Shown here piece after piece: positions 36,519 through 60,202 of a stretch of DNA of 64,000 nucleotides. The notes beneath the pieces were generated by a model that did not search any database, was not told the origin of the DNA, and saw only the letters and a program-made list of their open reading frames with translations. The DNA is from Massospora cicadina. Taxonomy: Eukaryota > Entomophthoromycota > Entomophthoromycetes > Entomophthorales > Entomophthoraceae. The DNA is taken from the NCBI GenBank assembly GCA_022478985.1, contig JAKSZP010009246.1, positions 1-64,000 of the forward strand, given 5' to 3'. Within the stretch, counting starts at the first letter, position 1; every line of letters starts with the position of its first letter. The position numbers and the translations under genes were made by a program.

Positions 36519-38446
36519 CTGGGCCAAACTACTTTTCTTTCCACTCAAACTCACTTTTGAGTGATTTATTTGAAAAAAGTTTGTTTATCCACCGCCATCT
36601 GGTCACGCCCATTTCCTATTCAATGTACTCAGATCCACCACCTGCCACCCCAGTGTGGGGCAGCAGTGCTCCACCGCCTAGCATTTTCCGCCCAGTGGGC
36701 AAATGCGTTTGGATGGGCTCAAACAGCCTACCCACCTCGTCCAGCCAGTTTATCCCCCACAGGACTTTGTGCTTTACCTGGCGTGCATCCACCCTTCTTG
36801 CCCCCATACACTCGCCCTCCCTCATTCCACCATTTGATTTTGCCTCCATGTTGACTACGGGCGTTTATTCTCATATGCCAACAAGGCAATTATTGACCTA
36901 GCCACCGCGGCCTTTGTGCCAGCTGGCTTTATCAACTTCTGCCCATTTAAGGGCTACTTTGATATTGGGTTCCAAACAGCGGAGGACGCTGCAGCGGCGG
37001 CAATAACTCCTTTAATTTACAAAAAAAAAACCCCTATTCCCACTACCCGGTACTCAACTCCCTTCAGACACCACCCTGGTGGTGTCCTATTCATCCCTCC
37101 CATCTCACCTCCCACCCCAAGTTTTATATGACCAGTTGGTCATGGGGCTTATGGCTTATAGCACTCAGCCCAACCTCATCTTTGCAGTACCCTCTGGTGA
37201 GGAGCACCTTGCTGCCCCTCATGCAAATGCCACCATCATACCACACCACCCTGCCATAGCCCACCAAATCCCTCCCCGCGCTAGTGTCACAGCAGCGCCA
37301 GATCATTTATTTTGGGCTCAGGTTAATAATGGTCAGCAGATTTGTCCCCTCTGCTTTAGGCTTGACCATGCAAAAAAGCTTGCCCACATGCCGCTTCCGC
37401 TGATACAGCTTCAGAGCCCCCCCACAGGTTCTGTATGGGGCACTTTGCTGCCCCCTCCCACCCTCCACTCTCCTTTGATGGGCCAGAATGAGAAATTGGC
37501 CCCCCCAAATCCTCCAGCCACATTCTCCCACCTAAACCCACCCCAGCCAATCAGAGCCAGGCTTGGACCACCCTTTGCACCCAAGCATCCACCCATTCTC
37601 CCACACCCCACCCACCCAACTTCTAAAACCACTTTTTTTGTGAACCAAAATCCATGGGACCTATTGGCAGAGGTTGATGAATCAGGTAACGTTCTCATTA
37701 GTGAGCAACCCAGTCAACCTCTCAGCCAATACAATTATGGTCAGGCCAAATTTTTCCTTCCTGACTTTGATGAAACCCCACCCCCAGACATTTCACCTCT
37801 CTGCCCAATGCAGCCCCCTACCAAAGTGACCACCAGCTCGCCTTAGCTGCGGTGGCCTCTCCCTGGTGCCCAACCCTATGAAAAGCAGTGGCCCAATCAG
37901 TGGCTCAGTTCCAGCTAGGCATGCCCACCATCTTCTTCCCCCCAACTTCCCTGAATCTACATGCAGCGACATCTCAAAGTTATTTGATGATTCTGAAGCT
38001 GCTGTCATGAATGTCGCAATGCTTGCCAAATTCAACCCTTCAGCTAAAATCACCCGCCACAGTATCTCCCTTTTTGCATAACTTCCTGAAGCCTGCAAAG
38101 AAGCTGAAATTCTTGTTGTGGCATTTGTTGAAGCGCTTTACTGCGCTAATCTTAATGAGGAGGTGGAAAACTTGTACTACACCGACTTCCACCCACACTA
38201 CGCAGATGCCCCGACGCCCTGGCTCTCCGCTTTGATATGCTACTTTAATCAAAATCCCATGATCAAGGCACATATGTCTGAGGACCAACCCCAACCCCCC
38301 CTCACCCTCTGCTATGGTGGGTTAGCGGTTTCCTCTCCCCGCCTAGTTAGTAGTTTTATTTCTTTCCATTTGTTTTTGAGCAGTTTTTTTTTGATTATAG
38401 TATTGTCCATCCCCTGGTTGGCATACCTCAAATAAATTTATAATTT
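36519..38446 (+). mobile_element. K1: ORF1-only half-LINE (1928 bp)
   Basis: K1 is bounded by a near-perfect 12-bp target duplication, AAATA(T/C)CCTTAG, at 36507-36518 and 38447-38458, inside the H LTR. It carries one gag-like ORF1, broken by frameshifts, and no endonuclease or RT. It starts with a TTTTCTTTC block and an 8-bp stem hairpin (36542-36563). It ends with CCCCTGGTTGGCATACCTCA followed by an AT-rich tail (38413-38446). Both ends match the autonomous Tad1-like LINE L2/L1. Copies of the same length are K3 and K4. Confidence 0.88.
36600..38320 (+). pseudogene. K1 ORF1: gag-like protein with degenerate zinc knuckle
   Basis: The N-terminal Pro-rich part is at about 36620-36850. The conserved middle FINFCPFKGYFDIGF..AEDAAAAAITPL is at about 36925-37010. 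The 37079-37846 stretch (255 residues) has the LPSHLPPQVLYDQLVMGLMAY segment and a knuckle CPLCFRLDHAKK lacking its last Cys (about 37345-37380), then a long Pro-rich region. The C-terminal domain EALYCANLNEE..DAPTPWLSALICYF is at about 38130-38245. It resembles L2's ORF1 in layout. Its role would be RNA binding in a LINE-type RNP. Confidence 0.75.
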
Positions 38447-38982
38447 AAATACCCTTAGCCTTTAGTCACCAGTAACTTAGAACCCTGAGTGGCAGAATGG
38501 TCATTGATTGCTCTACTATTGAACCCCTCAGCGCCAAAGCTGGAAATATAATTGTCCTGGGCATAAGTCACCAGATAATCCCTAGATATTATATGATTGG
38601 ATTATCCTTGGCATTAGTCACCAGTAATCCTGAACATTTTGACATCAAATTGGCATTCCAACAGTAAACCTTAACCAAATTAAACATTTGATTATCCACA
38701 GCAAAAGTTGCCAGTAAATACTAATTAATATATGATTCATTGATTATTCTTGGCCTCCAGTCGGTGGTAAAAAAACTAATTGCTATCAAGGATCATCCTC
38801 AATACTTTCCCAATCCAGTGAATTATCAAATTATCTCAACCCAACTATCTGAGAAACACAAATGGCAACTTGTTGTTGATTATATCATCAAAATTAGGTG
38901 ATTGATTGGTCTGCAAGCCCTGACTAATTTTAACCCTAAATTGATATACAAGAAGAATTTTAGTTCGGGAAATTTTTCAACA

Positions 38983-39245
38983 CTTTCCCTCCTTGACTAG
39001 ATCTTATTCCTCCAGCATGACTCCTACCTTTTTGGTGGGTCAAAACTTCATCAGCATGATGGGGAGAGAGGTTCATGGTGCAACCTCCACACCTCCAAGA
39101 GGTTCCACAAACTACAATATCAGGGCTGAGGTTCTGCAGTGTGGTATCCTCCCTGAAAAACAAACCTAATGGCTCTTTACAACTCCTAACCATACCTCCA
39201 ACTACTTGAGCAAACACTAGTGGAGCCCCCTATAGCGAGCATCAA
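38983..39245 (-). other. Element H interior with PBS
   Basis: The minus strand from 39244 reads TGATGCTCGCTATAGGGGG (39244-39226), a decayed version of the TGGTGCTCACTACAGGGGG primer site of F, G and J. An 85-codon open frame (39217-38960) ends in ..HQKGRSHAGGIRSSQGGKVLKNF, which overlaps the purine tract and LTR start. Without a recognised domain it may be a leftover of gag or the pol end. Confidence 0.65.
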
Positions 39246-41400
39246 TGTCACAAATTTTGCATTATGTTACATTAGGGCTCTGCCAGTGTGCCAGACCACA
39301 TAGTATGATGAATTCTGGCCCTTGCTGTTTTGCCTTCATTGGCATACCTTTTCACTACCAGTCCGCAGGGCAACCCACCAAACTAGCAGACTAACTCTTC
39401 ACCTTGGCTAGTTGACCCCTCTTAGGTGTGCACCGGTGAGTCCAACCCTCATTGCAGGTGTCCCAGATGTCATGGCTTTAAAATGACATAGTCATGGAGA
39501 TAAATACCAAGGACAAAGCTGCATGTCAGGAGGCCAAGAAGGTGAAGTTAGAAGGCCTCCTGACAGCAAGCATACATTGGATTAACGCTGAGTGAAGGTG
39601 AAGTATGCCCAGGTTGGTCCTAGGGATGCAAGAGAAGTTTGGCCCAGTATAACAGCAGGTGCGTTAAAACGAACTATCTTTTCAATTAACAAAAACGGTT
39701 TGCTTTGGTTTATTGGTGAAAGGAGTCTTAAAACCTATTTAATTTTGAAACTTTCAGCTCAAGTTAGATTCTCCTACAATTGATAACCCAAGTTTAGTCA
39801 ATTACTAAGTATAGTTTACTGCCCAATAGAAGTGTGCGCTTATTGGTGCACCTCAGCTTAGCACCACTTCCATCAATTGATTGTTTCCCTGGATTCCCTT
39901 AAATTCTTTTCATCAAGACCAATCTCTCTCATTGGTTGACTACCCTCATAATAAAAACCTTTGCTAGTACACCTTTTTTATATATGTTATCTTTGACAAA
40001 CCTGTGCGCAGACCACTTTGAGGAGGTCTCACATAATGTTGACCCTTTAATTTTAACAACTGTAAGTCTCTCCACACATGCACTATTAGGCCGCCCAGGT
40101 TCCCTCCAACCTGGGTCGCCTATACACTCCCACTCTAAGCACCGCGTGGTTCAAGTTTAGTTCTTCCCTCTAATGATAACCATCCTTGACTTAAGTTTTT
40201 ACAGCTCAAGCACCCTCTTCAGGGATTTAGTAACCTCCATACAAAAGATTAATTTCCTGGCGTTGGCCCTGTGCACCAGGCACTATCACGCGGGAACAGG
40301 ATAGTTATAGACACTCTCCTTACACCATCTCCCTTGCTCCTTCACCCTCACGGTCAATTGCTGGCTCATCTTGGGTGTGCACCAATGTGCCCTGGCCCCC
40401 TTCCTGTTCATCCCAGCTCCTGGATACCTCACCCTCATGGCTAATGTCAGTCAGTACCTCGTTGCTTGTGGTAAGTTTCACAAGTTCCCATGGGGCTTCC
40501 TGGTAGCTTTGAGGTATGGGTTTTGGTAGCTCCAACCACTCCAGGTGCATTAAACTAACACCTACCTTGGGGATCTTCAGTCCTACCTTTATCAACCTAG
40601 AGGCATAAATCCTAACAGCTGCTAGAGATGGGTGCAAGAGAGATCTTTATTAAGAGGGAGATTCAACTATTTATACTTAAGCGTTTCATGACAATCTGCT
40701 GCCCACCTATCAACTTCATCAGCATTCATCACTGGCATCTCATATAATCAATGGACTTCTGCCTGCAATTATTTCAGCTTAATTAGTTGCACTTAAACAC
40801 TGTAAATTAGGTTGATCCATCCTCAGCATCAGTCACTAGTTATTTTTGTATAAATTTCTATTATGAATTTCGTCAAATATCCTCAGCCTTTAGTTGCTAG
40901 TAATTCAGAACCCTAGTTGGCGGAATGGTCATCACTTGCTCTACTATTAGAACCCTCAGCACCAATGCTGCAATCTGATTGTCCTCAGCATAAATAGCTT
41001 GCTAATTCCTAAATAGTACATAATCAGATTATCCTTGGCATCTGTTGCCAACAATCCTAAATACTTCAAAATCAAATTGGCATTTTGCTCAATAAAATTT
41101 ATTAATTAAACATTTTTTATTGTTATAAATCATCAGTAAATCCTAATCAGTATATGTGTTCATTGATTATCCTCAGCTTCCAGTTGATAAAAATCAAAAC
41201 ACTAATTGAATATCTAGGATCATCCATGATAATTTCCCAATCTGGTGGATAATCAAAATAGCTCAACCCATCCCAATGGGGAGCATAAATCAGCATTTAC
41301 TATTATCTATATTATTTAAACAGATGATTGAACAGTTTTCTGGTCCCAACTAATCTCAACCCTATTTCATTATTTATGGGAGGAATCCATCAGTTAATTT
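39246..41400 (-). repeat. 5' LTR of element H, containing a solo A-family LTR
   Basis: On the plus strand it starts TGTCACAAATTTTGC, two bases past the PBS. It is interrupted at 39468-40324. The outer end near 41400 is approximate, from loss of similarity with the left copy. Confidence 0.72.
39468..40324 (+). repeat. Solo LTR of the A/B/E family (857 bp)
   Basis: It begins TGTCATGGCTTTAAAATGAC and ends CTCCTTACA. It aligns along its length with the LTRs of A and B, including AAGTATGCCCAGGTTGGTCC (about 39601) and the inverted repeat ACCAAT..ATTGGT (about 39919-39936). The flanking 5-mers CCAGA and CCATC agree in three of five positions, compatible with an old target duplication. The H LTR sequence is interrupted exactly at its ends when compared with 35940-35970. 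Confidence 0.87.
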
Positions 41401-41999
41401 TTAGATACTTACCAATAGACTTACTTAACATGGAAGATTACCCTTTCACCAAACATTAATCATACACTTAAGACCCCTTTTAATTCAGCCAAACTTGTTG
41501 TTATAATCTATATGTTTCTAATGATTTTGCTAATCATAAAATATATATTTACCAATTAATGCTGGAAAATTCAGGTATTGAATTAATATAATCCAAGCTA
41601 ATAGTAGTTCAAGTAGAGTTGTTATTACAACTCTTTCCTGGAGAGTGAGAAAACTGTAATATATGACATGTTTGTAGCTGGATTTTTAGATGCAAAGTAT
41701 TTATTTATAGAAGTTTTAAGAATTTTTGTATTTTTTAATTAAATCATAGCTGATGACCAAATTTACATTGGCCTAAAAGATTTTAATAAATCATTGTAAG
41801 GTATTTCACAAAGATTTCTAATCAATAAAAAAATTAAACCTTTTGTATTTATATCATAATAAATTTAAAGTGATTGTTTATAAAGTTAAAGTCATGTGTG
41901 CTTAGCTGCCACCTTTTGTAAAAAACAGGCATCTTTCCTAGATATGTAAATTATAAGTAATAAGCTTATATGGTTGATTAAGCCAATTTTTATCATAGG
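41401..41999. other. AT-rich sequence, nothing recognised
   Basis: Low-complexity A/T-rich DNA between element H and LINE L1. No coding frame or repeat end was identified, except that TTTTTATCATAGG at 41987-41999 is the left copy of L1's target duplication. Confidence 0.6.
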
Positions 42000-44331
42000 A
42001 TTTTTATTTAACTGAGGCAAGCCAACCAGGGGATGGGCATTACTGAGTATGTGTGGGAACAAAAAAGGGGGAAGCGAATGTAGAACAAATTGGGCACCCT
42101 GGGGTACTCAGGTTACCCCTGTTGCCAGCGGGATTGACAGGTATGGGGGTTGGTGCGCTACTCTGAGGGAGTTTTCCCCGTTATGGAGCAGGTGTGAAGG
42201 AAGAAGTCTGTGTGGAGGAACCAGAGTGGGAACCACGATACTATAAGCACCTGTTGCCTTGGCCTCATATATCCATAGAGCCAGGCTTGGAAGTGCTCCA
42301 ATAAGTGGACGTGGAACCTGTTGATAACCCCACGGATGGTTGGGACCGTGCCCTTGAATGCATCTAAAGCAATGGTGTGGATTGTCCACATTGCAATGGG
42401 TATCATTAGGGAGCGGAGGGTAGATGGGATTGGTGATTCAATCTGGAGTGCAAGGAGGCTTTTTGAGATAGAAAATTCTTACTCGTTTTGGAGCTTAAGC
42501 AGGCGCGCGACTTCCCGCCATATGGCTTTGGTTGGGGGGCATGTTTCTAGGCGGTGTTATAGGGAGCCCTCCCCTCCACATACTGCACAAGTTGCATGGA
42601 GGGAATTGGAGCGGTCCGCCATCCTATAGGTCCTTCTCAGACAGCGCCAGGCGTTGGCTCTTACCCTCAGCTGTAAAAGTGGGTGGTGCGACATTTTCCA
42701 CACTGCCTTCTGTGTGGTTAAGTTGTAGGGAATGTCCAACACATCTAGGTATTCGATTCTAGCAATGATTGGGGTTGTAGCAAGCATGTCTCTCTGGGGG
42801 TGGTTTTCTGGATTTCTTAATTTGAAGTGGGGGCTGGATCATCCCCTTCCCTGCACAGTGCCAGTGTTCTCTATGGTCCACCCCATGCGTTAAATGGCTC
42901 AGAGGATGCATTTGAAGTGAGGGGGGTTCCATGCGGGCCCATTGCAGTAGGGTGTTTAGTAAGGTTTGATAATAGTCTGGGTGGGCTATATGAGTTAGTT
43001 AATTTGAGCGCTTGTGCAAAGTTAGTCCTCGCTGCACTAGATAAGTGTTGTTGCAGGAGGTCTGGGGTAAGGAATTCCTTTATCCAGGTACCCAGGATGC
43101 AGTTGGCGTGGCTCTCAAAATCTATTAGTTTCATGCCTCCGCTTGAGCGTGGGCCAAAGAGAGTTTCCATCCATATGGGAGGATGGGATCTGGGCCACAG
43201 CCAGCCCTGGATGAGCGCGTGGATTGAAGTTATAAAGGTGGGTGAGAAGGCTATCATGTGGGCAGGGTACCATAGTATTTGGAGGGTGAGTGAGTTAGCA
43301 ACTGCTACTCACCCCATTAGTCCTGGGGATCTTCCCTTGAGGGAGGCGACGCGAATGGATACCCGCTGTAGTAGGTTGCTTTCCATTGTCTCATTGGCAT
43401 ATCCCCCTGTTTCCAGCCATATCCCAAGGTGGCAGACAGTAGTGGTGGTGGGAGGTGATGCAAAGGGTAATATGAGTGGGTTTTTCCTTTGTATGGGGGT
43501 GTGAGGTTCTGGTGTTGTAGCCCAGTTGTTAGTGTAATTGCCTAAGAGAATGATTTCTGTCTTTCTTTTGTTAAGCGATGCATTGCTCACCTTGGAGTAT
43601 TCCTCTAGAGTGCGTTCTAGTTGACGGGCATCATTGTTGTTAGCTATTCCTGCCACAAAGTCATCCGCAAAGGCCAGTATCTTGAATGTTGGCTGGCCTT
43701 GTGCAGTTATGCCCATGAGGCTTGAGTCAGTTATGCGGAGGAGTGGATTGAAACTGAAATTATACAGCAGTGGGATGAGGGGGTCCCCTTGTTTGATCCC
43801 TCTGTGTGATGTAATATTGTTAATTAGGAAGCCAAGGCCGCATACAGCCATGGTTGCAGATTCTGTAAGGAGCATCGCCCAGTTTATGAATCTAAAGTGG
43901 GAGTTTGAAAGCGTGTAGGCATTCTTTTAGGTATGGCCAACTAACGCGGTCATACGCTTTTCCTGGTCTAAAAAGACCAATACTTCAGTTGCTTTGGACT
44001 GACATGTTTGCAACAGGGTGTATGTTGTTCCAGATTAAGCGCCCTGGTATAAACCCAAACTGGTTGGGTGACAGGACGTTAGAGGCTATTGTGCCTAATA
44101 TGGCCGCTAAAATCTTTTTTAGAATCTTTGTATCAGTATTAGAAAGTGCAATTGGACGCCAGTTGGCCAGGTCCAGTTTGTCACCCTTCTTAAATAGGGT
44201 TATGGCATATGATTCATTGCCACCAGGTAGGAGGCGTGGTTCCATCAAGCACTGGTTCATAGACAACAATAGGAGGGGGCAATTTGCTGAAAATATTTTT
44301 TGTAAAATTTGTAGGGTATCCCATCAGGCCC
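42000..44331 (-). mobile_element. L1: 5'-truncated Tad1-like LINE
   Basis: L1 is 2332 bp. Its 3' end (42001-42038, minus) is nearly identical to the K4 3' end. Its 5' end stops inside the RT near the GPDGIPY motif. A 13-bp target duplication with one mismatch, TTTTTATCAT(A/T)GG, flanks it (41987-41999, 44332-44344), as expected from target-primed reverse transcription that stopped early. It encodes the RT from LANWRPIALSNTDTKIL (about 44160) onward, the thumb, and the C-terminal CCHC (ATCAVCGGEGS, about 42585). Confidence 0.9.
42150..44331 (-). pseudogene. L1 ORF2 remnant: LINE reverse transcriptase and C-terminal region
   Basis: FKKGDKLDLANWRPIALSNT.., GFIPGRLIWNN, HRGIKQGDPLIPLLYNF and the catalytic AFADDFV (about 43670) are canonical non-LTR RT motifs. 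The C-terminal part includes HLGIWLETGGY, GPRSSGGMKLIDFESHANCILGTW, WRCLRRTYRMADRSNSLHATCAVCG. Frames change at about 43980, 43300, 42870 and 42560. It aligns throughout with L2. Confidence 0.88.
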
Positions 44332-44344
44332 TTTTTATCATTGG

Positions 44345-45265
44345 CCTGTTCACTCTTATATTCTAGAATAACAACATATTTAGATTAACTGATAAATCAT
44401 AGAAGATATTCTTTTATGGCTATATAAATCTTTGCTTAGATTTATAAATTTGAACACAGGATGCACAACTTTAATGTAACCAAGGTGGATTGACCTTGAA
44501 ACAAATATACCAAACCAAGGTTTTTTCTGGACAGTACAGGTTTCGCCTGTGTTAAAAAACCTGAAGTAGAGATGAAGCAGGAATTACCTTACCAGGCTAA
44601 TTACCCCTTAGGATGCACAACCTAAGAAATGGTAATATACAAAAATAAAATATAGGATTTTATTTAGGTATATTTTTGTTTCTAACCATATGTGACTGGC
44701 ATGCAGAGAGTGTTTCTATAACAAGATTGAAATTCAGATCACAATCTAGATGAGTCGTCTTAGTTTAGAAATCTTATAACCCTTTTAGTGCCAATTATCT
44801 TTATAAGTATCAGTGCTTTATATAAACTTAAGATGAAAAGTAAGCACCAATTGTTAAAATTATTATGATAGTTATTTGTGCCAAGTATACTTGTTGTAAT
44901 TGGTGCTTAGGCTTTGAGTACAACAGCACAGATACTGGATACAATAGTAAGATAGAGAAAACTGTATGAAGACAGTAGCCCAAAAGTAAAATAAAAAAGA
45001 TTTTTATTGTCTAAGGTTATATTTTCAGCAGCTATATCAAGTCAAAAAACATAAGATCACATTCAAATTGCTACTCCCATCATTATAAACTATATTTATA
45101 ATATTGGGCAATGCATATTAATTTTTAATATGGTAGGAACTATTGGACTAGAATCCAGGGATATATAAACTTACCAATTGTTTTTACGCCAGCTTGAGGC
45201 AAGGGAGATAATAATAGTCCCTCTTTTGCTTCAAATAATTATTTAATAAAATTCAAATTTAAATA
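44345..45265. other. AT-rich stretch, nothing recognised
   Basis: No open frame with a recognisable domain and no repeat boundary, apart from the right copy of L1's target duplication at its left edge. Confidence 0.6.
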
Positions 45266-45269
45266 AAAA

Positions 45270-46930
45270 TGCTCTCTGTTACCTTTTTGCCTGTGTCACT
45301 ACTAGCCCATGTTGACTATATCAACGCAGTTGCCTCTGCATGGGGTGGTGGTGCGCCGCCTCCTGGAATTTATCAGCCACTACTGAAACTCCCCCTGTCT
45401 GGCCCAGATAGCCCTGTGAACACTTCCAATTGCTAAATCATGCCTCAGGACTTAGCCACCACCTTGCATGCTCCTGGAAGTTCTAAGAAGCTCATGGTGC
45501 TCCCTCAGAGCAACCTGCATTTTGGTTTTCAGGTCAAATATGGGAACCTCTTCCCCCTACATGAGCGCAGCCATCATTGAGATGGACATGGCAGTTTACA
45601 AACCTTCTGGATTCATAGAGTTTCTGCCCATTTAAGGGTACTTTGATATTAGCTCTTTGAAAAGACCATGCCATGGCGGCAGCACAATGCCTTTAATATA
45701 TAAAATAACTTATCCCAACCATAAGGATTTTCTTGCCAGATGAGGCCAAACTGGTGGTCCAGTTTACCATCTTACCAACCCACCTCTCCCTAAAATGCCT
45801 TCACCATGAGCTCATGGAGGGCTTGGCTGCCTATGGCACCAACCCCATGCTGCAATTCATGGTTCCAGCTGGTGCAAATCATCTTTCTGGGCCTCACACA
45901 TTTGCTAAAATCCACTCATGCTTTTGGGACACCCACCTCACAATACCTTACTGCGCTGTGATCAGATAAACCCCTGATAATCCCTTCTGGTCATTCATTG
46001 AGAATGGCCACGCCATCTGTTTCTTATGCTTCACATTGACCATTCAAAGCACAAGTGCTCAGCAATTTTTTGTGGAAGCTGGTTCCACTTCTCCTCCCTC
46101 TAGCATAAACCTCACTACTGTTTTTAGTAACTTCTTTGAATGGGGATTGATTCTCCCTCCCCCAACCTCAACTGCCACAGGTGATGCCCACTGCTCCACC
46201 CAACCAAGATTTGAATGCCAGAACCATTTCTGAGCAGATGAGTGCTCAAGTGCTGGCGGATTTGCCATGGTCCACTGTGTTTGGTCATTTAGCATCTGCC
46301 ACCCACTAAGCCTTGTTGCTGGTTCAAAGCTGGCTGTGTCAAATCCTTTAGAGGCTCTCAAGTGTATTGATAGTTCAGACTTAGCCTATGGAATAAAACC
46401 TGACTTCAACTGGTCAGAATTTTTCACCTAACCCCCTAATTCAGCCCCACTTTCACTTTCACCCTTGTGCTGGATATCCATTCTATAGAAATATTCATCA
46501 GAAAGCCATTGATGTAACCACTCCCCCCACCAACTCCCTCCTCTGCCAAGCCCTACATACGGCAATCAAGCCACCTTGTGAGGTTTTCACCATCACTAAT
46601 TTCCCCAGTGATTACCCTAAAGATGCGAGTTTTGATATTAAAGGGCTTACATTTGTAGCTGGCCATGAGTGCATTGACGCAGTCAGATATTTTCTTTATG
46701 ACCCCACCTACCCCAAGCCCACAAATGAATTAAATCATTCACTTGTATGCCTGAAATCGTCAACTTAGCTGAATAACAGATTGCCCAATAAGTCAAGGAT
46801 TCACACCACTGGCCTCATTGATGAGGAGAACCCTCACCTCTTTCTCCTTCTACCCCACGCTTTTGAGACTCCAACCTCTATTTGTCTGCCTTTGCCCACC
46901 ACCTGAAGCTGGTTCCAGATTAAAAACCCC
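45270..46930 (+). pseudogene. K2 ORF1: gag-like protein, degraded
   Basis: The segments GFQVKYGNLFPLHE (about 45533-45570), LPTHLSLKCLHHELMEGLAAYGTNPMLQFMVPAG (about 45768-45875) and CFLCF..DHSKHKC (about 46021-46052, read across a frameshift; CCHC knuckle) match K1, K3 and K4. Downstream sequence is more diverged, with many stops. Confidence 0.68.
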
Positions 46931-46984
46931 TGACCCATCTTCCCCTTCAAATATGGATGCTTAGGCCAACGCCACAGCACCATG

Positions 46985-47014
46985 TTTAAATTTTAAATTT
47001 TAAATTTATTGCGG
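46985..47014 (-). repeat. AATTTAAA-type 3' tail of LINE L2
   Basis: Several units of a TTTAAATT-like repeat lie directly after the LINE 3' end and before the target duplication. Short A/T repeats instead of plain poly(A) are also seen at the K1 3' end (AAATAAATTTATAATTTAAA). Confidence 0.75.
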
Positions 47015-47172
47015 GGAAGGCTGACCATGGGACGGACACTTCTGAATATGACTCAGACGAGACAAAACTTAGCACCAGGGGAGGCACCCCAGAGAAGCGA
47101 TGCTATCTCTTGTTGCCAGCGGTAACGCCACTTATGGGAAGGGGGAGGGAACGTGTGTAGGGGGCGTAGCCA

Positions 47173-48613: not shown

Positions 48614-49426
48614 TTACCCAGAATATTCCTGGATGAGGGCTTCAAGCGCGCGTGCATCTTTGTTATTAGACACCCCCACCACGCAATCATCTGCAAATGC
48701 CATCATCTTGACTGGGGTTTGGCCTGGCACATGGACCCCAGTGAGTTGGGCATTCACATTTCGCAGTAGTGGGTCAAGGCTGAAGTTGTATAAGAGTGGG
48801 CTAAGGGGGTCCCCTTGTCGCAGGCCCCTTTGAGGATGGACTACTTCCGTTAGGAAACCTGGGCCGCGCACTGCCATTGTTGCAGATTCCGTGAGCAGCA
48901 TCACCCAGTTAATGAAGCGGGGAGGTAGGCGGAATTGTTGGAGGCAGGCCCTAAGGTATTCCCAGTTTACTCTATCATAGGCCTTTTGTTGGTCCAAGAA
49001 TACAAGTGCCCCAGAGGCTGTGGACTGACACACATTAGCCGCAGAGTGCACGTTATCCCAAATCGACCTTCTGGGGATGAAACCAAATTGTTCTGGAGAG
49101 ATGGTGGCAGATGCTACAGTCCCTAAACGGTTAGCCATGATTTTTGTTAAAATTTTGGTGTCTGTGTTTGTTAGAGAAATGGGGCGCCAGTTGGCTAAGT
49201 CTAGCCTATCCCCTTTCTTGAAGAGTGTGACTGTAAAGGCCTCATGTCCTCCTGGTAGGAGGCGCGTTTCCAACAGGCTTTGGTTGAGTGAGGCTAGCAG
49301 CAATGGGGATATATATTTAAAATATTTTTTGTAGAACTCATATGGAATGCCATCTGGGCCTGGGCATTTTTGGTTTGGCGCACCGCGAATGGTAGTCCAT
49401 AATTCGTTAGGAGTAATTAAATTCAT
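48614..49426 (-). pseudogene. L2 ORF2 reverse transcriptase domain, open over 270 codons
   Basis: All canonical non-LTR RT blocks are present in one frame: CPGPDGIPYEFYK, LFKKGDRLDLANWRPISLTN, GFIPRRSIWDN, LDQQKAYDRVNWEYL, RGLRQGDPLSPLLYNFSLDP and the catalytic AFADDCVVG (about 48690). It copies the element RNA at the nicked target. The upstream frame (50337-49426) ends in a stop that overlaps this Met, so a frameshift separates them. The domain itself appears undamaged. Confidence 0.92.
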
Positions 49427-50756: not shown

Positions 50757-50864
50757 CGCACCTTAGGTGTGAGGGGTGGGCCCCCTGGCCCACCAGCCTC
50801 TTCCAGGTCCCCACGGGCTTTCACAGCAGCGCAGGTATTAGCAGCAACGCTATTGGGGTTTTTG

Positions 50865-52174
50865 TCAATTTTTGCGGAAAGAGTCGCGTTGGCTTTGGCC
50901 TTCGCTTTTTGTTTTCCCGACGTTGGACGAATTTTTTGCGGTGCAGATAAGTTTGGTGCACCGTTGAGTGGGGCAAAAAATTTTTTTGGTTGGGATAGGT
51001 CCCAAGTCAGTTTTGACTGGGGCTTGGGTGTAGTGATTGGGTGAGATCGAATCTCCCATCAGATCCTCAGATTGAGTGGCCCATTTGGCATGGGCCTCCC
51101 AATCTGATTGGGTGATGGATCCCTGAGTTGCTTCCACCGCGAAGGTCTCCATGTCCTCCTGGCGTTGTGAGTGTGGGATGGTGGTGGTGACCTTGGCCGC
51201 TTCCTTGGCCGCAGTCCTATGGGCCTGCTTAGCCTTCTTCCACTCCTGCGGGGAGATGGGCTTTTATCAATAGATAGCAGCCTTGTGCTCCCCATGGGAA
51301 AGCCTCTTTGGTGCTTGCGGTTGGTTCATAGTGCGCCTCTCCACTGGCCATGGCTGCCGAGGGGTGCTCTTGGAATGTAACTCCCTCTTTGATGGGGCAT
51401 GCATGTGCCTTATGGCTGAACATGACACAGTGGGTGCAAATGGTGGGCGCGCAGTCCACGGTTACCCGGAATGGGTGGGTGTGTGCCCTGCAATGTCAAT
51501 AAAGGTGGAGTGTGGGATCCAGGTTAGGTCCTTCGCAATCTCCTCAGTTGGGGTCAGAACTATGATGGCTTTGCTGGTGCACAGGTGTGGCATCAGCGTG
51601 AAACATTGCATTTCAAAAGATTGTATTTCGCTGTATATGGCGAGACCATCTTTCAGGTGTTGCTCCAAAATGTCACGTTTATGTAGTAGGCAAAAAGTCA
51701 AACATGAGGAAAATTTGGTTTGATTTTGTCCATCTGGTGCATTTAGTTTCAATGACCCATTGCCCTTCAGGGAGGTTGACCACTACGCGCACTGCTGCAG
51801 CCTCATCTGCTGCTATTTTGCTTTTAAAACCTAGGTCCAGCCAACCGCGTGACATGGAGTGAGTTGCAACATACACCGCAGTCAGGAAAATTTTGTGTAC
51901 ATCTTCACAAAATTTTTCCCATAGGGCCATTTTTTGGATGTCCAGATACACACGGACTCCAAATTCCACCGACGAAAGTGGCTGGGAATGTGGCGTGTTG
52001 ATGTACTGGTTGCATCGTGCTTGCCACGCGAGTATCTCTGGGGGAAATTGTGACCGCCAGTTTTTTTAGATTTTTTTCTATTCCGCCGGATTCTCCGGGG
52101 CGTTTTCGAATGTTAGAGGCCTCAGGCCTTCCGCCTGCTCCTCTTGCCTTGCTTGCCCAACTGCTCCCAGACAT
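50865..52174 (-). pseudogene. L2 ORF1: gag-like RNA-binding protein with CCHC knuckle
   Basis: It starts at MSGSSWASKARGAGG (52174). The middle parts are FGVRVYLDIQKMALWEKF.. (51969-51840), DLGFKSKIAADEAAAVRVVV, and KRDILEQHLKDGLAIYSEI (about 51680). CTHCVMFSHKAHAC (about 51436-51395) is a CX2CX4HX4C zinc knuckle. A basic tail follows (RRSGRRLSRPIGLRPRKRPRS, about 51255-51190). Four or more frame changes. The layout parallels the K-element proteins (AADEAAA versus ADDATAA; LPTHL..LMDSLTAYG). Confidence 0.8.
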
Positions 52175-52232
52175 GGGCGCAGACTAATCCCCTCTATGAG
52201 ATTATCAAACTAGATTTAGTCTTGAATTGAAT

Positions 52233-52268
52233 GGGTTGCAAAAGTGTTTGCAACGAGAAAGAAAAGTT
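52233..52268 (-). other. 5'-terminal hairpin of LINE L2
   Basis: GTTGCAAA (52254-52247 on the minus strand) pairs with TTTGCAAC (52242-52235) around a 4-base CACT loop, 15 bases in from the element's 5' end. K1 has CACTCAAA/TTTGAGTG at the same place (36542-36563). Confidence 0.65.
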
Positions 52269-52284
52269 GCCACAGCACCATGTT

Positions 52285-53146
52285 AGGTTTTTTAATTCTA
52301 TCTAATAATTACTTTGTTTGGCACAACAAAATTAAGATGTGTGGAGGAACCCCCTTTTGGGTTGGTCACTACTAGTACTAAAAAATAATGATAATAATAA
52401 AGGGGAGTTGAGATTACATGGCCATGAACCAAGGTAAATCAATAATAATGAGTGATTTGAGCCATATCACCAATGGGGTGGGAAGGAATTGAACCTCATT
52501 AGATACATATTTTAGTCAAAGGGTCAGGGTGAGAAAACAAATGTAATCTAGTTCTATTCATCAATAACTGCATAAGATATTTAGCACGAGGTGAGGTAAT
52601 CCAAAGTAAACTAATTTTATGTATCAACATCAGTATCAAGGCCCAAAGGATAAATCCTCTGTATAAATATAAAATAAAAATTAAGTATAAATAGTAGCAT
52701 GAAAATAATATTATATGGCTGGACAGACCAAAATGCAACATTTTTTCCAATTGACCAAACATCTGAGCACAAAAATTAAATTAGGGGTTATATTAGACTA
52801 TTGAGAAGCTGGGGCCATAAGTTTAGTTAATGCTTGCTATCCATTATTTCTATTTACTAGATTAGCTACTGGCAGCACATAAAAAATCTAATAATGTAAT
52901 ATCTTTTCACATGAATTTAGTAAGATTAGTGTTTTACAAAGACACGCTATTTTCTCCCTGGTTAGGATAAACATCACCAGAGGCAGCAATAGGATCTTAT
53001 TTAGATCAACAATGGGGCAGAAGTAATTTACCATATAGAGTCTGAGATATAGTAAAGTCAATATCCATACTACAAGGGCTTTATAGACAGGTGTTATGGT
53101 AAAGCTGCATCCAGAGAATAATAATTCCATTAGACTCAACTATTGA
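52285..53146. other. End of K2, then unassigned AT-rich DNA
   Basis: 52285-52386 appears to be the 3' end of K2. The remainder to the K3 border holds short minus-strand open stretches without recognisable domains. Confidence 0.5.
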
Positions 53147-55069
53147 TTTATTTGAGTTAAGCTGACCAGGGGATGGACATTAACAAAACTAAAATTTAAA
53201 TCTAAAAACTAACGTAACTAATTGATTCAAACAGAATGCCCAAATGAGCGGATTAAATGAAACACTTTGAATGAAAACAACCAACAAGGTAGGTAGCAAT
53301 AAATGCTTATCCCTCCATGACGGAAGGGGAGGGGGGCTCAGGGGGCTCATATTCAGCAGCAGCTTCCTCATCCCAGAGTAGGGTACATGTCAAGGTGGAC
53401 AGCAAGGGTGTCAGGGTATTGGCGGCATGTGGTTCAATATTACTAATGATTGGTATTTCATGGAAATTGCAAGCCAGAAATATGGCACTGGTATATTTGA
53501 CTATAGTTTTTTTTGGCTTTAATGTGGACGTCTGGGAGTTTAACAAACGTGGCAATATTAGTTCAGTTAATCTTAGCTTTAGGATTTCGTGATAAAGTTA
53601 CCACGTTCTGGATAGCATCATTGATATTTTTGTGTAACTGATTCACTTTTATTTTACTTTTGGGGTGAGGGTGAGGGGATACAGGAGGGAGAATACCTCC
53701 TGTGAGCATCGCCACTGATTTGGCAACAGCTTTGCAGAGGAGATGAAAATCTGTGTTGCAGCTGCTTTGACTGCAAGCTAGTGGTCACCGCAAAATGATT
53801 TGGCATTTAGCTGTGGGGTATATAGATGAGGGGGTATTTAGCGTCCCATTCTGCATTAACAAACTGCTTGATTTGCAAAAAAGGTTCTTCTATGAGCTTA
53901 CCTGATTCGTCAATTTTAGCCAATAACTCCCATGGGTTCTGGTTGAATTGAATTGGGGAATTGGCGTGTGGTTGAGGTTTGGTTGATTCATTGGAGGAAG
54001 TATGGGATTAAACTGGGGTCCAAGCCAGTGCTTGTCTGGAAGAATCATGTGTGGCACTAGGGCAAGGAGGAGGTTGATTGGTGGCTGCAGGTGCAGCTGT
54101 AGCATCAGACTTTGGGGGAGGGGGAGGTAGGATCATACCCCATACCAAAGCTGGCGTGGGGTGTGTGGAAAATTGGAGGCCAGCGGACAAAAATCTGATC
54201 CATCAGAAGTGGCTAAGGAGGTGCACTTGCGTTTTTATGTGGTCCAATTCAAAACAGGATGGACATATTGTCCGCCTGCCCTTGATGTGAGCTCAAAAAT
54301 GGATGTTCATGGGCAGAAGGAATAATGGCGCAAGGGGAATTGACATGGTAATTTTACTAAATTCAGGGCTGATCATAGCATATGCCCAAGGCCCAGCGAG
54401 GCGCGTGGCCCCATTTGGGACCACAAATTGTAAGATGGAGTTGGAGCCATAAGCTGTCAAACTGTCCATCAGCTCCTGGTGGAGCACTTCAGGGGAAGGT
54501 GGGTGGGAAAATTAGCAAACTGGACCACCAAAGTGGTGTCCACTGGGAGCTGGGTCCAAATTGTGGAAAGAGGGGTACCCTGGAATACCAGGGGCACAGT
54601 TGCCGCAGTGGCATCATCAGCTTCACAGGTGAAACTGAGGTCAAAATACTCCTTATAGGGGCGGAAATCTATGAATCTGGCGGGGGTCATCACTGCCTGT
54701 GCCATTTTGATAATGGCTTGGTCATGGTATGGGAAGAGTTTCCCATAGTTGACTCTTAGGCTGTAGTGCATGTTGCTCCAGGGGAGCACCAGGGGGCAGC
54801 GAGGTACCACTTAGGTACAAGAGAGGTGAGTGTCAAGATCCTTGGGAGGAACAAATCATCCCATGGGTTTGGAATGACTGGGAAAGCCAGTCTGAGCACC
54901 TTTTACTGCTGGACGGAAATCGGCAGGGGGAGCTTCACCGCTGCCCCACATCAGAGCATCTGGCGGAGAATCTGAGGTCATTGGAGCAAAATACAACAGG
55001 CTATCAAAATTTACTTTCTTTTTTTCATGTAATTTGCTCAAAAAGTTATGCTGAGTGGAAAGAGAGTAG
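53147..55069 (-). mobile_element. K3: ORF1-only half-LINE (about 1923 bp)
   Basis: On the minus strand it runs from CTACTCTCTTTCCACTCAG (about 55069) to CATCCCCTGGTCAGC..CTCAAATAAA (about 53147). Its length and both termini agree with K1 and K4. A target duplication was not recognised. It contains only the gag-like ORF1. Confidence 0.82.
53307..55000 (-). pseudogene. K3 ORF1: gag-like protein
   Basis: It starts near MTSDSPPDALMWGSGEAPP (about 54990). LRVNYGKLFPYHDQAIIKMAQAVMTPARFIDFRPYKEYFDLSFTCEADDATAA is at about 54765-54600. LPTHLPLKCSTRS and LMDSLTAYGSNSILQFVVPNGATRLAGPWAYAMI (54520-54370) precede the knuckle CPSCFELDHIK (about 54270-54235; the last Cys is shifted by a 1-nt insertion). 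The C-terminal part ANTLTPLLSTLTCTLLWDEE is at about 53420-53350. Confidence 0.78.
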
Positions 55070-56690
55070 ATTTTTAAAATATTAAAAGCCAAATTTAAAG
55101 CGCTTTTGCACTTTTTTAAGATACTTAAAGGGGATGATGCCTCCCTTGTTCATAAGTTAACTGGTAAAATTGGTGGGGCTTTAAGATCTGGTTGGTATGG
55201 AGTTTCACTATCATCTTGTATTGGAAGCCTTAGAGGAACAGCATACACATTATCAACAAGTATATGGTGCAAGTCTGGGGAAATTATTTGGAATTATCAT
55301 AAAATAAATCATCAGGGTTGATGCTGTTTTATGGACTAAGCAACATAGTCTAATTAAGCATCTTTAATAAATATTGGTGATGTCAGAATAACTTTTAGTA
55401 ACCATCCACACAAGACCACGTTCACTATCAGGTGATGTCTTCTCAGTATAATAAAGCAGGCCAGTTGCCCCCTATATCCAAAGTATTATTCTCAAAGTTG
55501 GTTTTGAGGCCATATTTTTCCTGAAAGGTGCCAATAAGTATAACATAGTTGTCACAAATAAAATGATGGCCATAAAAAACAACAATATATTACCAAACTG
55601 CAGCAGCAAGGAGCTATAAGCTCCATGGTAGGTAGTGGCATTAGGTCCCATGATCCCATATTTTTTACAACGGAAAATATCAAGTGCAATTTCAAGTTCC
55701 TTCATTTAGAATAAAGGAAACTATGTTGATGGATCATCAATGTCCACAGTTGCCAAACTAAAATGTTATTTATGCTTTTATCTATGTAAGTACACTCAAC
55801 GTGATTATCTGATCCAGTAATCATATGAACGTCAATAGTGGCTGCTTGTCTCAGGTATGTAAATAAGTTACCATTTTCCTGTGGCCGTGGAGGCATAGAA
55901 AAACCTTTTTCCATTATTTTATTATAAGCTCCACCAATGATACAGCAAACTGTATTGTTTGATTCATTAATATGATTTTTAAACTTTTTTGGTGGAAGTA
56001 AAATACCATTTTTCTATTCCACCAAAGCTTTTCCCAAATCCTTGTCCACGGTCAATTTCAAAAGATGAATACTAGGTTCCTTATCAAAGGTTCTAGTATT
56101 AGGAGAACCAAATGTAAGGGTGCAGTAATAGAGGTAAATAAACCATTTTTGTTATGGTGCTTTTAGAATTTAAAATGGACAACATGGCCCATAAAGTTAT
56201 GTTAATAATTCGTTTGACCAACCATCAGTTCATAATTATTGCATACTTAATTTTATATTAACTAATCTTTAGATAATGGATTTGATCCAATCATAGCAAT
56301 TAGTATGGCACAAGGCCCAATTTTTTATAAGTAGTTGGCCACTTATTGATTTACTATTGATTAAATCCCTATTTCCTCACCAACACTTTTCAACCCTTAC
56401 ACTATAGACCAGTGGTGTTTGTTGGACATTCTCTTTCTTGACTTAATAAAAAGAACGTTGGAGGTATTAGGGCTCACAAATCTGCTACCATGATTGGCCC
56501 ATCTCCCACCCAATCCTCAAATAATATTGTGGCTATTAATGATATGAGTACTCACAGTGAAAAGACCTTAGCAGATTCTTGGTGGAATTCTAATTATCAG
56601 AAAAACATGATTTATCACAAAAATTGGCCAAAAAAGGTAAATACTAATAATAGGATTACTTTGGCTTCTCAGTCAAATTTGAGGAGTATG
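55070..56690. other. Unrecognised sequence with possible coding debris
   Basis: Minus-strand readings at 56130-55702 (..HLLKLTVDKDLGKALVE.., then EKGFSMPPRPQENGNLFTYLRQAATIDVHMI) and 55705-55472 (DIFRCKKYGIMGPNATTYHGAYSSLLLQFGN) look like protein remnants but match no family I can name. A plus-strand stretch (56490-56717, Asn/Ser rich) is equally unassigned. A dead element of another class is possible. Confidence 0.4.
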
Positions 56691-56692
56691 AT

Positions 56693-56998
56693 ATTGCACA
56701 GATCTGAACCTCCATGAGGCGAGAAGATTTTACCCATCAATGATTGGGTGTGAGATAACCAATCATTACCATCCAAGTTTAACCACTGCCAAGGTGCAAA
56801 GATTTTACTTGATGATGATAGGGTAAAAATTACCCTATCATTACCATCCAAGTCTGACCACTGCTGAGGTGCAAAGATTTTACTCGACAATGATAGGGTA
56901 AAAATTAACCAATCATTACCACACAAGTTTGACCACCACTGAGGTGAAAAGATTTTACTCGTTGATGATTGGATACAATTCATCAAATTGTTACTGCA
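56693..56998. repeat. Minisatellite, 75-bp period, about 4 units
   Basis: AAGATTTTAC recurs at 56724, 56799, 56874 and 56949, exactly 75 bp apart each time. Units also share ACCATCCAAGTTTGACCACTG. The period is a multiple of three, so an uninterrupted minus-strand frame runs through with a 25-residue repeat (SSKIFAP.QW..LDGND). Each unit holds an inverted repeat; the best is ATGATAGGGTAA-AAA-TTACCCTATCAT (56815-56841). Confidence 0.9.
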
Positions 56999-58291
56999 CG
57001 GGTCAGTTTTGCCTCAAAAATTTTATCTTCAATCTGATAGGCCAAAAGCCTATATTACCTAATTTAGATAACTGAGCTTTACATTCTTTTGCCTCAAATA
57101 TTGATGGTCTCAAAATCTTAACTAGTTTAAATAGGAAAAACTAGTATTGAGAAAAGGACCTTTTCCTGGTTTTGCCCACTTAAAATAATAAAGAAACATA
57201 ACTATGATAAAACATTATTTTATACTTTCGTTAAAAAGTAAGATTCTCACTTTGAGAAATTATTTGTGGCATCCATTGGCGGATCCCACAGCGTTGAAGC
57301 TTTGATTTCTTGATTGCCTCCTATGTTACTTCAGCATCATTATACTATATTGCCTCACGTTGGCAAAAAATTGGTAATAAGGTCCTCTATAATTATTATG
57401 GCCAGCTGCCAATAACTTGATTGCATCTGGTGTAATTCAATTACAACTGTTGTTTTGATCTTATTTTGTAAATGCCAGGAGGCCTAATCACTTGCTTTCC
57501 TGGCCTAAAGATTGGATGTTATACCGGCAGTTTACCAATCTTAAGACTTCTTAGTAACCATAAAATGCACCAATACAATTCTGGTAGAGAGCATTTCTAG
57601 GTGAGCTTGCCATCTAGAAGGGGGTTTTCCTAAGTAGATATTTTGAATTTACTATTAAGTTATATTAGCAAGCCTTGGAGCATTTGGCAGTACCAAATAC
57701 TATGGGGTACTCCTCTTTTTAATTAATTAAACCCTATTTTTGATATTAAGGTTTTTGGGTTTTTAAATTTTACCCAGATTGCTGTTGTCAGGCTTTACCA
57801 TGTGTGGGTAAAGCCTTGACTTTGGACATATAAATGATTTATTAATTTTAACCAATCACAATTTATTATATTACTGACTGTTTATTTTATTTTTATTTTG
57901 ATCAAGACTATATCCTGAAATTCTAATATGTATTAGGTTCAGAAACAAAAATAATTTTTAAGTGTACCAAATTTATGACCAAACCAAAATCTAATTAAAA
58001 AAATAGGTAGAATTAGTTATTCCAATGTTAACATTGGAGATATATTACCAGATAATGATGTAATTCCTTAAGAATCAGCATTTCTATCTGAAACTACAAC
58101 TGATAATATGATTCTAAAAGGACAGCAATGATTATGGTAACAACAAGAGGTTGAACCTTTAAATAATTAGTTCAAAAAATTGATAAGAAGTACCCTATCA
58201 TGAGATACTAAGGGAATCAATTCTATGCCATGTACCTGTAAAACCTATAAATAAAAACTTATTCCATTTAATAAAGCACTTTTCATTGGAA
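56999..58291. other. AT-rich sequence, nothing recognised
   Basis: No coding frames of note and no element ends were found. AAAGCACTTTTCATTGGAA at 58273-58291 is the left copy of K4's target duplication. Confidence 0.6.
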
Positions 58292-60202
58292 AACTCTCTT
58301 TCCGCTTGACATAACTTTCCAAGCCAAACTACACAAATTTAAAAAACAAATCATATCTGCCTATATTAGTTTTGCTCTGATGTCATCAGATTCTCCACCA
58401 GCTGCTCCAGCGTGGGGCAGCGGTAAAACTCCCCCGCCATTTTCCATTCAGCAGGAAAATGCGCTAGGACTGGTTCACCCAGACATTCCAAACCCATGGG
58501 CTGATTCGTTCCACCCAAGGACCTGGATGACCACCTTGCTCATACCCAAGCAGTACCACGCTGCCCCCTAGTGCTCCCCTGGAGCAACATGTGCTATGGC
58601 CTAAGGGTCAAATATGGGAAACTATTCCCATACCATGACCAAGCCATTATCAAAATGTCACAGGCAGTGATGATACCCGCCAGATTTATTAATTTCCGCC
58701 CCTACAAGGGGTATTTTGACCTCAGCTTCACCTGCAAAGCTGATGATGCCACTGCAGCAAACGTGTCACTGGTATTCCAGGGCACCCCTCTCCCCACAAC
58801 TCAGACTCAGCTCCCAGTGGACACCACTTTGGTGGTCCAGTTTGCTGGCCTGCCCACCCACCTCCCCCTGAAGTGCTCAAAAAGGAGCTGATGGCCGGTT
58901 TGGCAGCCTATGGCTCTGACCCCATCCTACAATTTGTGGTCCCAAATGGGGCCAAATGACTTGCTGGGCCTTAGGCATATGCCATGATAAGCCCTGAATT
59001 TAGTAAAATTGTGGTGGCAATTATGCCATACACCATTATTCCCTCAGCGCCCAACCATCCGTTTTGGGCCCACGTTGAGGGTGGGCAGATGATCTGTCCA
59101 TCTTGTTTCAAGTTAGACCACTAAAAACGCAAATGCCCCTACTCAACTACATCAGACAGATTGGATGACTCATCTGCTGACCTCCAATCTGATGCCCGCC
59201 TGTACAATTTCAGGTATGGGGCACAATCCTACCTCCTCCTCCCCCAGAGCCTGTTGCTGCAGCTGCACCTGCAGCCACCAATCAACCTCCTTCCCGCCAC
59301 AATGCCATAAATAAACCCTCCAACCAAACATAGGATTGGATCCCAGTTCAATCCCATGCATCCGCAAATGAATCAAACAAACCTCAAATGTATACTGATT
59401 CCCCAATCCAATTCAACCAAAACCCATGGGAATTATTGGATGAAATTGACAAATCAGGTAATGTCATTGAAGAACCATTGCTGCAAGTCGAGCAGCTCTG
59501 TAACACAGAATGTGATGCAAAATTCCCGCCTCATAAATATATTCACAACCCAACGCCAAACCGTTCTACAGTGACCACCAGCTTGCAGTAGAAGCGGCCA
59601 CCACACCAAATTGCTGTCCACTCCGCAAAGCTGCCACCAAATCTGTGGCTGTGCTCGCAGGAGGAATTCTTCTTATTATTCCCAAAGATCTTACTGCACA
59701 AAGTAAGATCAACATGAAAACTTTAAAAAAAAATGTCACCAAAGCCATCCAGAACATGGTAACAGTAGCACAAATCTGAAAGAAAAATAACCTGAACCAA
59801 CATTGCCACGTTTATTAAATTCTCAGACGCCCGCCTCAAAGCTGAAGATGCTTTGGCCAAATACATTGTTGGCATTATGATGGCCAACAACTATTTGGAA
59901 GTTCCAGTCATCAGAGATATCAAATCCCATACTGCCAATGCCCCCACACCCCTACTATCTGCCTTAACATGCACCCTACTCTGGAATGAGATGGATGCAG
60001 CCAAAGATGTTTCCCCCAATCCCCCTCCCCATCCACCATGGAGGGATAGCAGTATTCGCTATCCACCTGGTTATAATTTGTTAGGTATGATTCAATTGAT
60101 CCATCCATTTTGGGCGTTTTGTTTGAATTGTTAATTTTTTATTATGATTTTAGTTTTATTTTGGTGATGTCCGTCCCCTGGTTGGCTTACCTCAGTTAAA
60201 TA
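58292..60202 (+). mobile_element. K4: ORF1-only half-LINE (1911 bp)
   Basis: K4 starts AACTCTCTTTCCGCTTG with a 5-bp stem GCTTG..CAAGC (58304-58324). It ends CCCCTGGTTGGCTTACCTCA followed by GTTAAATAAA (60175-60202). It is flanked by an imperfect ~19-bp duplication (AAAGCACTTT..ATTGGAA at 58273-58291 and 60203-60222). Its 3' block is almost identical to that of the autonomous LINE copy L1. Gag-like ORF1 only. Confidence 0.88.
58380..60134 (+). pseudogene. K4 ORF1: gag-like protein, best preserved K copy
   Basis: 58380-58571 is N-terminal and Pro rich (SSDSPPAAPAWGSGKTPPP). 58571-58891 reads LRVKYGKLFPYHDQAIIKM..FINFRPYKGYFDLSFTCKADDATAANVSLVF, then LPTHLPLKCSK. The knuckle CPSCFKLDH.KRKC (about 59097-59137) has a stop in place of one residue. 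A Pro-rich linker follows, then FNQNPWELLDEIDKSGNVIEEP (about 59412-59475). The C-terminal domain MMANNYLEVPVIRDIKSHTANAPTPLLSALTCTLLWNE is at 59878-59990. Comparison of K1, K3 and K4 shows this is one protein family. Confidence 0.8.

Follow-up and report, generated by a model that had tools for sequence, protein, structure and literature searches.

The window analysed here, a 64,000-nucleotide stretch of contig JAKSZP010009246.1 from Massospora cicadina, a cicada-killing fungus with a giant genome, contains two kinds of related repeats. The K elements are discrete units of about 1.9 kb that carry a single open reading frame (ORF1) with a CCHC knuckle and neither endonuclease nor reverse transcriptase (RT), while the L elements are long interspersed nuclear elements (LINEs) that encode the RT. 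This description of K1, K3 and K4 had been predicted from the DNA letters alone, and both the reading frames and the copies elsewhere in the genome agreed with it. Self-comparison of the window revealed K1, K3 and K4 as related units, with 75% identity over 1.9 kb between K3 and K4 and 55-56% between K1 and K4. On its sequence, K fits an ORF1-only (half-LINE type) non-autonomous LINE, with an ORF1 but neither endonuclease nor RT, moved as a unit, and with ends in common with a LINE of the same genome.

K1 (36520..38444, plus strand) is full length and is flanked by a 15-bp target duplication with one mismatch (TTAAATATCCTTAGC at 36505..36519 and TTAAATACCCTTAGC at 38445..38459), while its 3' hairpin block and AATAAA tail lie at 38399..38437 on the same strand. 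It splits an unnamed repeat (36400-36519 / 38447-38597), whose uninterrupted relative at 40767-41024 provides an empty paralogous site for comparison. K4 (58292..60202, plus strand) is also full length, and its 5' target duplication (58273..58291) and imperfect 3' counterpart (60203..60222) match exactly over 10 bp and, by eye, over 19-20 bp when mismatches are allowed. The predicted target duplications of K1 and K4 were thus upheld, and both elements have end-to-end copies in the genome. K3 (about 53147-55069, minus strand) was recognised as full length by its end-to-end identity with K4 and by its 5' and 3' blocks, with no clear target duplication seen. K2 (45300..46985, plus strand) is a decayed K-type ORF1 copy of another family, identified by blastn to K3/K4 over 45327-46058, by protein alignment and by its CCHC; its own element ends were not found.

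K2 is interrupted by L2 (46987..52268, minus strand), a full-length autonomous LINE whose frames are now broken and which is bounded by the 16-bp target duplication GCCACAGCACCATGTT (46971-46986 and 52269-52284, by eye). L2 is laid out as an ORF1 with a CCHC followed by an ORF2 with an APE endonuclease, RT and a zinc-finger region. In a Pfam search, its ORF2 matched RVT_1 (2e-33), while zf-RVT reached 22.1 bits, under the cut-off of 27.5; RVT_1, endonuclease and zf-RVT domains were present in many relatives among the at least 120 matches listed in a protein search. No RNase H match was obtained in the four broken L2 pieces scanned, a domain that is frequent in the Tad1 clade. L1 (42000..44331, minus strand) is a 5'-truncated LINE of a second family that carries RVT_1, has further places in the genome and is flanked by the 13-bp target duplication TTTTTATCAT(A/T)GG (one mismatch; 41987-41999 and 44332-44344, by eye). 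L3 (61184..61425, minus strand) is a strongly 5'-truncated LINE 3' end with the 3' block and 70.6% identity with L1. The CCHC is visible by eye in the ORF1 of K1 and of L2, and no Pfam model matched the single K1 piece scanned.

Copies across the genome

The M. cicadina draft genome was described as 1.49 Gb, assembled from Nanopore R9 and Illumina reads, and said to be 92% transposable elements (PMC9584336). The Tad1-like placement of the LINEs in the original prediction was not established; a comparative genome paper names the LINEs of M. cicadina L1 and annotates 6.3% of the genome as such, unusual for the order (PMC10515909). We searched the assembly that holds the window (1.47 Gb in 16,968 contigs) at the DNA level, and the top-ranking candidates were scored: 40 of 11,416 for K1, 40 of 13,151 for K4, 38 of 23,847 for L2 and 40 of 11,692 for L1. 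By hand count and including the window copies, 29 of the 40 scored K1 places were end to end (query start at or before 35, end at or after 1918), as were 35 of the 40 K4 places (at or before 11, at or after 1909); two more K1 places and one more K4 place had both ends despite internal gaps. Most copies lack the initial 12 bases of K1 (36520-36531), since 26 of the 28 other end-to-end places begin at query base 13 or later, and the family 5' end therefore lies near 36532. For the L1 family, 39 further places were found among the 40 scored.

A less biased test of length used the last 304 bp of K4 alone, for which the best 40 of 3,883 candidates were scored. Of these 40 places, 20 were probed 1.8-1.95 kb upstream; K4, three copies whose full length was already established, two further places that were passed over and the remaining lower ranks were not included. 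A K 5' end was present about 1.91 kb upstream in 17 of the 20 probed copies. Six copies (L077, L079, L084, L085, L091 and L092) combine a K4-like 3' end with a more divergent 5' region (5' scores 32-42 vs 68-86) and similar 5' signals, and perhaps form a K4 subfamily.

The 50 K copies that were fetched are dispersed, and 44 of them had a target duplication score of at least 10 (3/100 in control pairings of flanks from different loci); a score of at least 13 was reached in 33/50 (0/100 in controls). Among the six copies that scored below 10, L027 was scored at the wrong place owing to a short flank and L041 lacked a matched 3' end. The duplication assigned to L003 falls in element-end sequence and is doubtful. 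Copies of about 1.9 kb, as predicted, were the majority of those scored or probed. Continuation of K copies into an endonuclease/RT frame had been named as a refuting result; ORF2-like sequence (E at most 1e-4) lay inside or contiguous with K in 0/50 fetched copies. It occurred in the flanks of 7/50, and on the same strand downstream solely in L012, 987 bp away.

Among the places scored, identity to the query was 86-90% for K1, 85-89% for end-to-end K4 copies and 88-93% for L1 copies, while L2 copies were 93-97% identical to the window L2, that is, 3-7% diverged (e.g. G000:C9454:29026-34307). K1 and K4 copies are about as diverged as those of L1, and the activity of L2 probably postdates the bursts of K1 and K4. 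Variant 3' ends for L2 copies, considered because matches stopped near 4095, were rejected, as ten fetched 3' regions all had the ordinary L2 end.

Termini shared by K and L

A 20-bp 3' block was found at five places in the window with at most 3 mismatches, namely the ends of K1, K3, K4, L1 and L3, and had no match at up to 4 mismatches in five mononucleotide shuffles. Longer alignments joined K4 to L1 (90% over 42 bp, E 5.6e-8) and K1 to L2 (77% over 52 bp, E 1.6e-4). Terminal similarity of K and L, whose absence from consensus alignments had been named as a refuting result, exceeds chance at the 3' end and in most of the 5' comparisons. A 3' hairpin can form in all families seen. Its core, TG(T/C)CC(A/G)TCCC(C/A)TGGT(C/T)(A/G)GC, is less variable than the outer stem, which reads GGTAT/ATACC in K1, GGTAA/TTACC in K4, GTTAA/TTAAC in K3, GGAAG/CTTCC in L2 and GGTAA/TTGCC in L1. 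In the six window 3' ends, 95% of cells were paired, a level reached by 2/500 shuffles; in 12 hand-picked copies of five families, 88% of cells were paired and 9 were double-changed, and 0/500 shuffles reached either value. These shuffles overstate independence, given the kinship within families, and the family-level stems amount to about five independent observations. The number of hairpin pairs with a double change was unexceptional (76/500 shuffles), and two inner pairs often fail (in 7/12 and 4/12 copies), probably due to CpG decay. Overall, the K and L1/L2 families share a predicted 3' terminal hairpin with compensatory stem changes.

At the 5' end, the K1, K4, L1 and L2 families all have an ACTTT motif preceded by a pyrimidine tract. 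Using single copies (L011, L033 and K3 vs L2 and L067), we counted the 35-base placements in the LINE whose score equalled or exceeded that of the true 5' end, which is part of the count. Such placements numbered 2/5248 for K1 vs L2, 1/2889 for K1 vs the L1 family and 1/5248 for K4 vs L2, while K3 gave 41/5248 vs L2 and 12/2889 vs the L1 family. The 5' block of L2 with which K elements begin in the original prediction is real, but weaker than the 3' block. By these alignments, a 5' end shared with the LINEs is clear for K1 and mixed for K4 and K3. The 5' family stems differ yet remain pairable: GTAAC/GTTAC in L1, GTTGCAAA/TTTTGCAAC in L2, GCTCGAA/TTTTGAGC in K1 and GCTCGG/CYGAGC in K4. The pairing observed in a set of four sequences was reached by 7/500 shuffles, and a 5' hairpin likely exists.

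Constraint, decay and descent of ORF1

The ORF1 of K encodes a protein of about 540 codons, and its core is about 48% identical between K1 and K4. For codon-position tests, the frame was taken from the independent pair (the K4 frame from K1-K4 for K3-K4, and the reverse), and differences were read from the nucleotide alignment. Between K3 and K4, the three positions differed at 114/531, 85/535 and 175/534 sites (21.5, 15.9 and 32.8%; p 2.6e-10), and between K1 and K4 at 224/525, 201/527 and 299/524 sites (42.7, 38.1 and 57.1%; p 1.1e-9). Because third positions change most between families, these counts indicate protein-level selection on K ORF1 while the families diverged. Within families, the three positions differed nearly equally (6.7, 7.6 and 8.5% in K1; 6.7, 6.1 and 7.2% in K4), as is expected after insertion. 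In-frame stops of the longest open stretch were mostly found in one or two copies (10/12 sites in K1 and 13/17 in K4). In the K1 and K4 families (L001-L050), CpG was changed in 27% and 30% of copies, compared with 4-5% where C is followed by C or T and about 10% for CpA, that is, at about 6 times and 3 times these rates, which suggests cytosine methylation of repeats in M. cicadina.

K and L have homologous ORF1 cores, with an hhalign E of 2.9e-8 (probability 95) and tblastn E values as low as 1.2e-7 when K was compared with L1-family copies. In a tree of 13 ORF1 rows, K and L formed separate clades with 100/100 support; seven of the ten inner branches of this tree fell below 80, and K1 was flagged as a long branch. 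By inspection, the part of the L1 and L2 ORF1 that follows the CCHC was not seen in K. Since K ORF1 forms a separate clade, K did not arise from the L1/L2 LINEs by a recent internal deletion, and the idea of K as a simple half of these LINEs had to be abandoned. A tblastn hint of an endonuclease remnant at the C-terminal part of K ORF1 (SDHQL motif, E 0.029) was lost in profile comparison (probability 0.4) and was rejected, and the AlphaFold model of P0124 was set aside (mean predicted local distance difference test score 44).

In the protein databases, the relatives of K ORF1 were M. cicadina gene models. One search (233 candidates) gave 1 match, and a second (2293 candidates) gave at least 8 M. 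cicadina rows, 7 with E below 1e-38 and 1 at 0.044, all K-type ORF1 fragments only. The public gene model L0F63_007425 (P0001) strings together a K-type ORF1, frame-shifted K 3' sequence and parts of an L-type ORF1, and is likely a mis-annotation across two elements.

Proposed mobilisation in trans and known systems

We consider it probable that K is an old gag-only lineage of non-long-terminal-repeat retrotransposons, mobilised in trans by an L-type ORF2 protein, because K forms discrete units with target duplications, shares the 3' hairpin and lacks a polymerase. In such a cycle, the K RNA would encode its own ORF1 protein, of RNA-binding type with a CCHC knuckle, which would probably coat that RNA in cis, and an L1/L2-type LINE would supply the ORF2 protein in trans. 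The latter would recognise the common 3' hairpin and nick the target, and the K RNA would be copied by target-primed reverse transcription, while the common 5' end, with its pyrimidine tract and small hairpin, would probably serve a step that K and L have in common, for instance the start of transcription, translation or the finishing of the 5' junction. The use of its own ORF1 protein in cis would follow from the coding constraint on K ORF1, as was argued for HAL1 (PMC3627910). We infer the ORF1 action in cis, the ORF2 action in trans, the L partner family, and the 5' hairpin and its role from sequence comparison. The partner family itself is uncertain: the 3' tail of K4 resembles that of L1 (TCAGTTAAATAAA), which it fits better than that of L2, and the tail of K1 that of L2 (AATAAATTTTAAA), but a K1-L2 and K4-L1 pairing drawn from the tails remains a guess, as the 5' ends give K4-L1 no support.

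Several results weigh against this reading. The ORF1 frame is broken in every window copy of K, and the majority sequences are interrupted as well, with longest stop-to-stop stretches of 234 amino acids (K1) and 202 (K4). Joint reading of the two majority sequences required 7 frame steps, and together they contained 3 stop codons. Homopolymer errors of Nanopore sequencing (reported as R9; PMC9584336) and CpG decay are likely behind the broken frames, the former being plausible because the single K4 frame step inspected falls on a C run. The frameshift-aware ratio of nonsynonymous to synonymous rates (dN/dS) for K3-K4 was 0.283, barely under the minimum of 30 neutral simulations (mean 0.379, standard deviation 0.043, minimum 0.286), and the reverse-complement control gave 0.343. 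The dN/dS test proposed at the outset was therefore given little weight, constraint being drawn from the codon positions instead. The L2 form of the 3' block lies 7 mismatches from the 20-mer / K4 block, so that the 3' block predicted to be common to all elements stood for K1, K3, K4, L1 and L3, and L2 resembles them only in the longer alignment. At the 5' end, K4 has no match to the L1 family (270/2889 placements), and the 5' hairpin was not above the null in a copy-by-copy count. Finally, score-ranked copy lists favour long copies, and the scored places are a small part of thousands of candidates.

These results also bear on other explanations. K could descend, by internal deletion, from an autonomous LINE that had a K-type ORF1 and is now unseen or extinct, as in the origin of HAL1, and its ORF1-only history might then be short. 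We regard this as possible, though we doubt it. A parent could have been missed in the genome, where scoring covered the 40 top places for each query, or among proteins, where K-type ORF1 fragments alone were returned, and P0001 does run from a K-type ORF1 through K 3' sequence into L-type ORF1 pieces; the shifted frames of those pieces, however, are expected when gene prediction crosses two neighbouring elements. Moreover, K1 and K4 have the same RT-less architecture despite their distant ORF1 cores, none of the 50 fetched copies runs into an RT, and both full-length autonomous families seen have an ORF1 of the other clade. A K-type parent that died out before K1 and K4 split may nevertheless have existed. 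It is rather improbable that K moved like a short interspersed nuclear element (SINE), its ORF1 being dead weight and its ends alone mattering. The broken window copies, the near-equal codon positions within families and an in-frame stop site common to 9/29 K4 copies would fit such a history, whereas the excess of third-position changes between families and the restriction of most stops to one or two copies would not.

We give still less credence to a 3' block that is convergent or a common polyadenylation signal, with K using another enzyme. The tail is rich in AATAAA and K4 differs from the L1 family at its 5' end, but the common segment spans about 40 bp with compensatory stem changes among families, and in the window five element ends alone carry the block. 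Domestication of K ORF1 as a gene or effector, with its copies multiplied by segmental duplication, is very improbable: LINE ORF1 copies are reported to have given rise to effector genes in Blumeria (PMC4641428), yet target duplications around 44/50 copies mark a retrotransposed unit. Mobilisation of K by an L-type ORF2 protein thus remains our preferred reading. An extension of it, which we put forward as speculation and think unlikely as a whole, is that K and L make up a long-lasting two-part fungal system, in which a gag-only lineage, distinct in its ORF1 clade and C-terminal domain, has accompanied several RT-bearing LINE families and co-varied with them in its RNA ends, and in which K ORF1 may act on L RNA too, a reciprocal dependence like the one proposed for HeT-A and TART.

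The rest of the window contains a decayed long terminal repeat (LTR) retrotransposon pol with a possible gag frame without Pfam match (3019-4216, 5170-5886 and 63212-63697), including RVT_1 and RT_RNaseH_2 at 3575-4216. A 75-bp tandem repeat lies at 56756-56969 (2.9 copies, 85% matches), and two segments of about 70 bp (52331-52400 and 60644-60711; 80% identity) are probably part of another repeat.

If the preferred reading is true, K would help explain LINE-related repeats in a genome that ranks among the largest of fungi and in which units of this kind might otherwise pass for truncated LINEs. Its ORF1 lineage would differ from that of either partner LINE family seen, and its dependence on L would be easily testable, since its two RNA ends are short and the stem occurs in several natural variants. 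The proposed recognition of the 3' end has a parallel in stringent LINEs: the ORF2 protein of ZfL2 is reported to bind its cognate 3' stem-loop via the region between endonuclease and RT, the stem being recognised in a general and the loop in a specific manner (PMC4176376), and pairs of LINEs and SINEs with a common 3' end have been reported (PMC6510757, PMC3747384). K resembles these pairs in its 3' tail hairpin but, unlike a SINE, encodes an ORF1 protein. An Rfam scan of the window, the only search made that bears on a polymerase III head, was empty. Eg-R1 also differs from K, being SINE-like and encoding a short peptide.

The original prediction knew of no fungal equivalent, and in the open-access literature we likewise found no clear description of a fungal ORF1-only LINE with shared ends, although Repbase and subscription papers lay outside this search and may hold a named entry. 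Nearest are the Kryze/EKA consensuses of Blumeria, fungal LINE ORF1 repeats mostly without RT. In the account of that work, apparently not one of nine AVRk1-like consensuses contains the two ORFs together, and RT lies downstream in 1/34 full-length fragments; a two-ORF LINE was sought behind them, and the account as available reports neither shared ends nor duplications (PMC4641428).

Outside fungi, HeT-A of Drosophila carries a Gag gene under negative selection without RT, the latter thought to come from TART or TAHRE (PMC5537684); HeT-A is telomeric, inserted in head-to-tail arrays, whereas the fetched K copies are dispersed and mostly bear target duplications. The HAL1 families of mammals are described as ORF1-only LINEs derived from L1, with ORF1 capacity kept for about 29-44 million years in guinea pig and taken to reflect ORF1 action in cis and ORF2 action in trans (PMC3627910, PMC4859970). 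The original likening of K to HAL1 was borne out for the ORF1-only architecture but not for descent: HAL1 arose when an L1 of the same genome lost ORF2, whereas the K ORF1 clade is separate from that of the L1/L2 LINEs. K also has a 3' hairpin, while the accessible parts of these reports mention none for HAL1 (PMC3627910, PMC4859970). In Dictyostelium, TRE5-A.2 entirely lacks ORF2 and is apparently mobilised in trans by the TRE5-A.1 ORF2 protein, as was a marked ORF1-bearing copy built on it (PMC5391098). Both TRE5-A.2 and K are without ORF2, but TRE5-A.2 is described as a direct derivative of TRE5-A.1 (PMC5391098), whereas K ORF1 stands apart from its candidate partners. Were the preferred reading true, ORF1-only LINE partnerships would have arisen or persisted in fungi too, besides mammals, flies and slime moulds.

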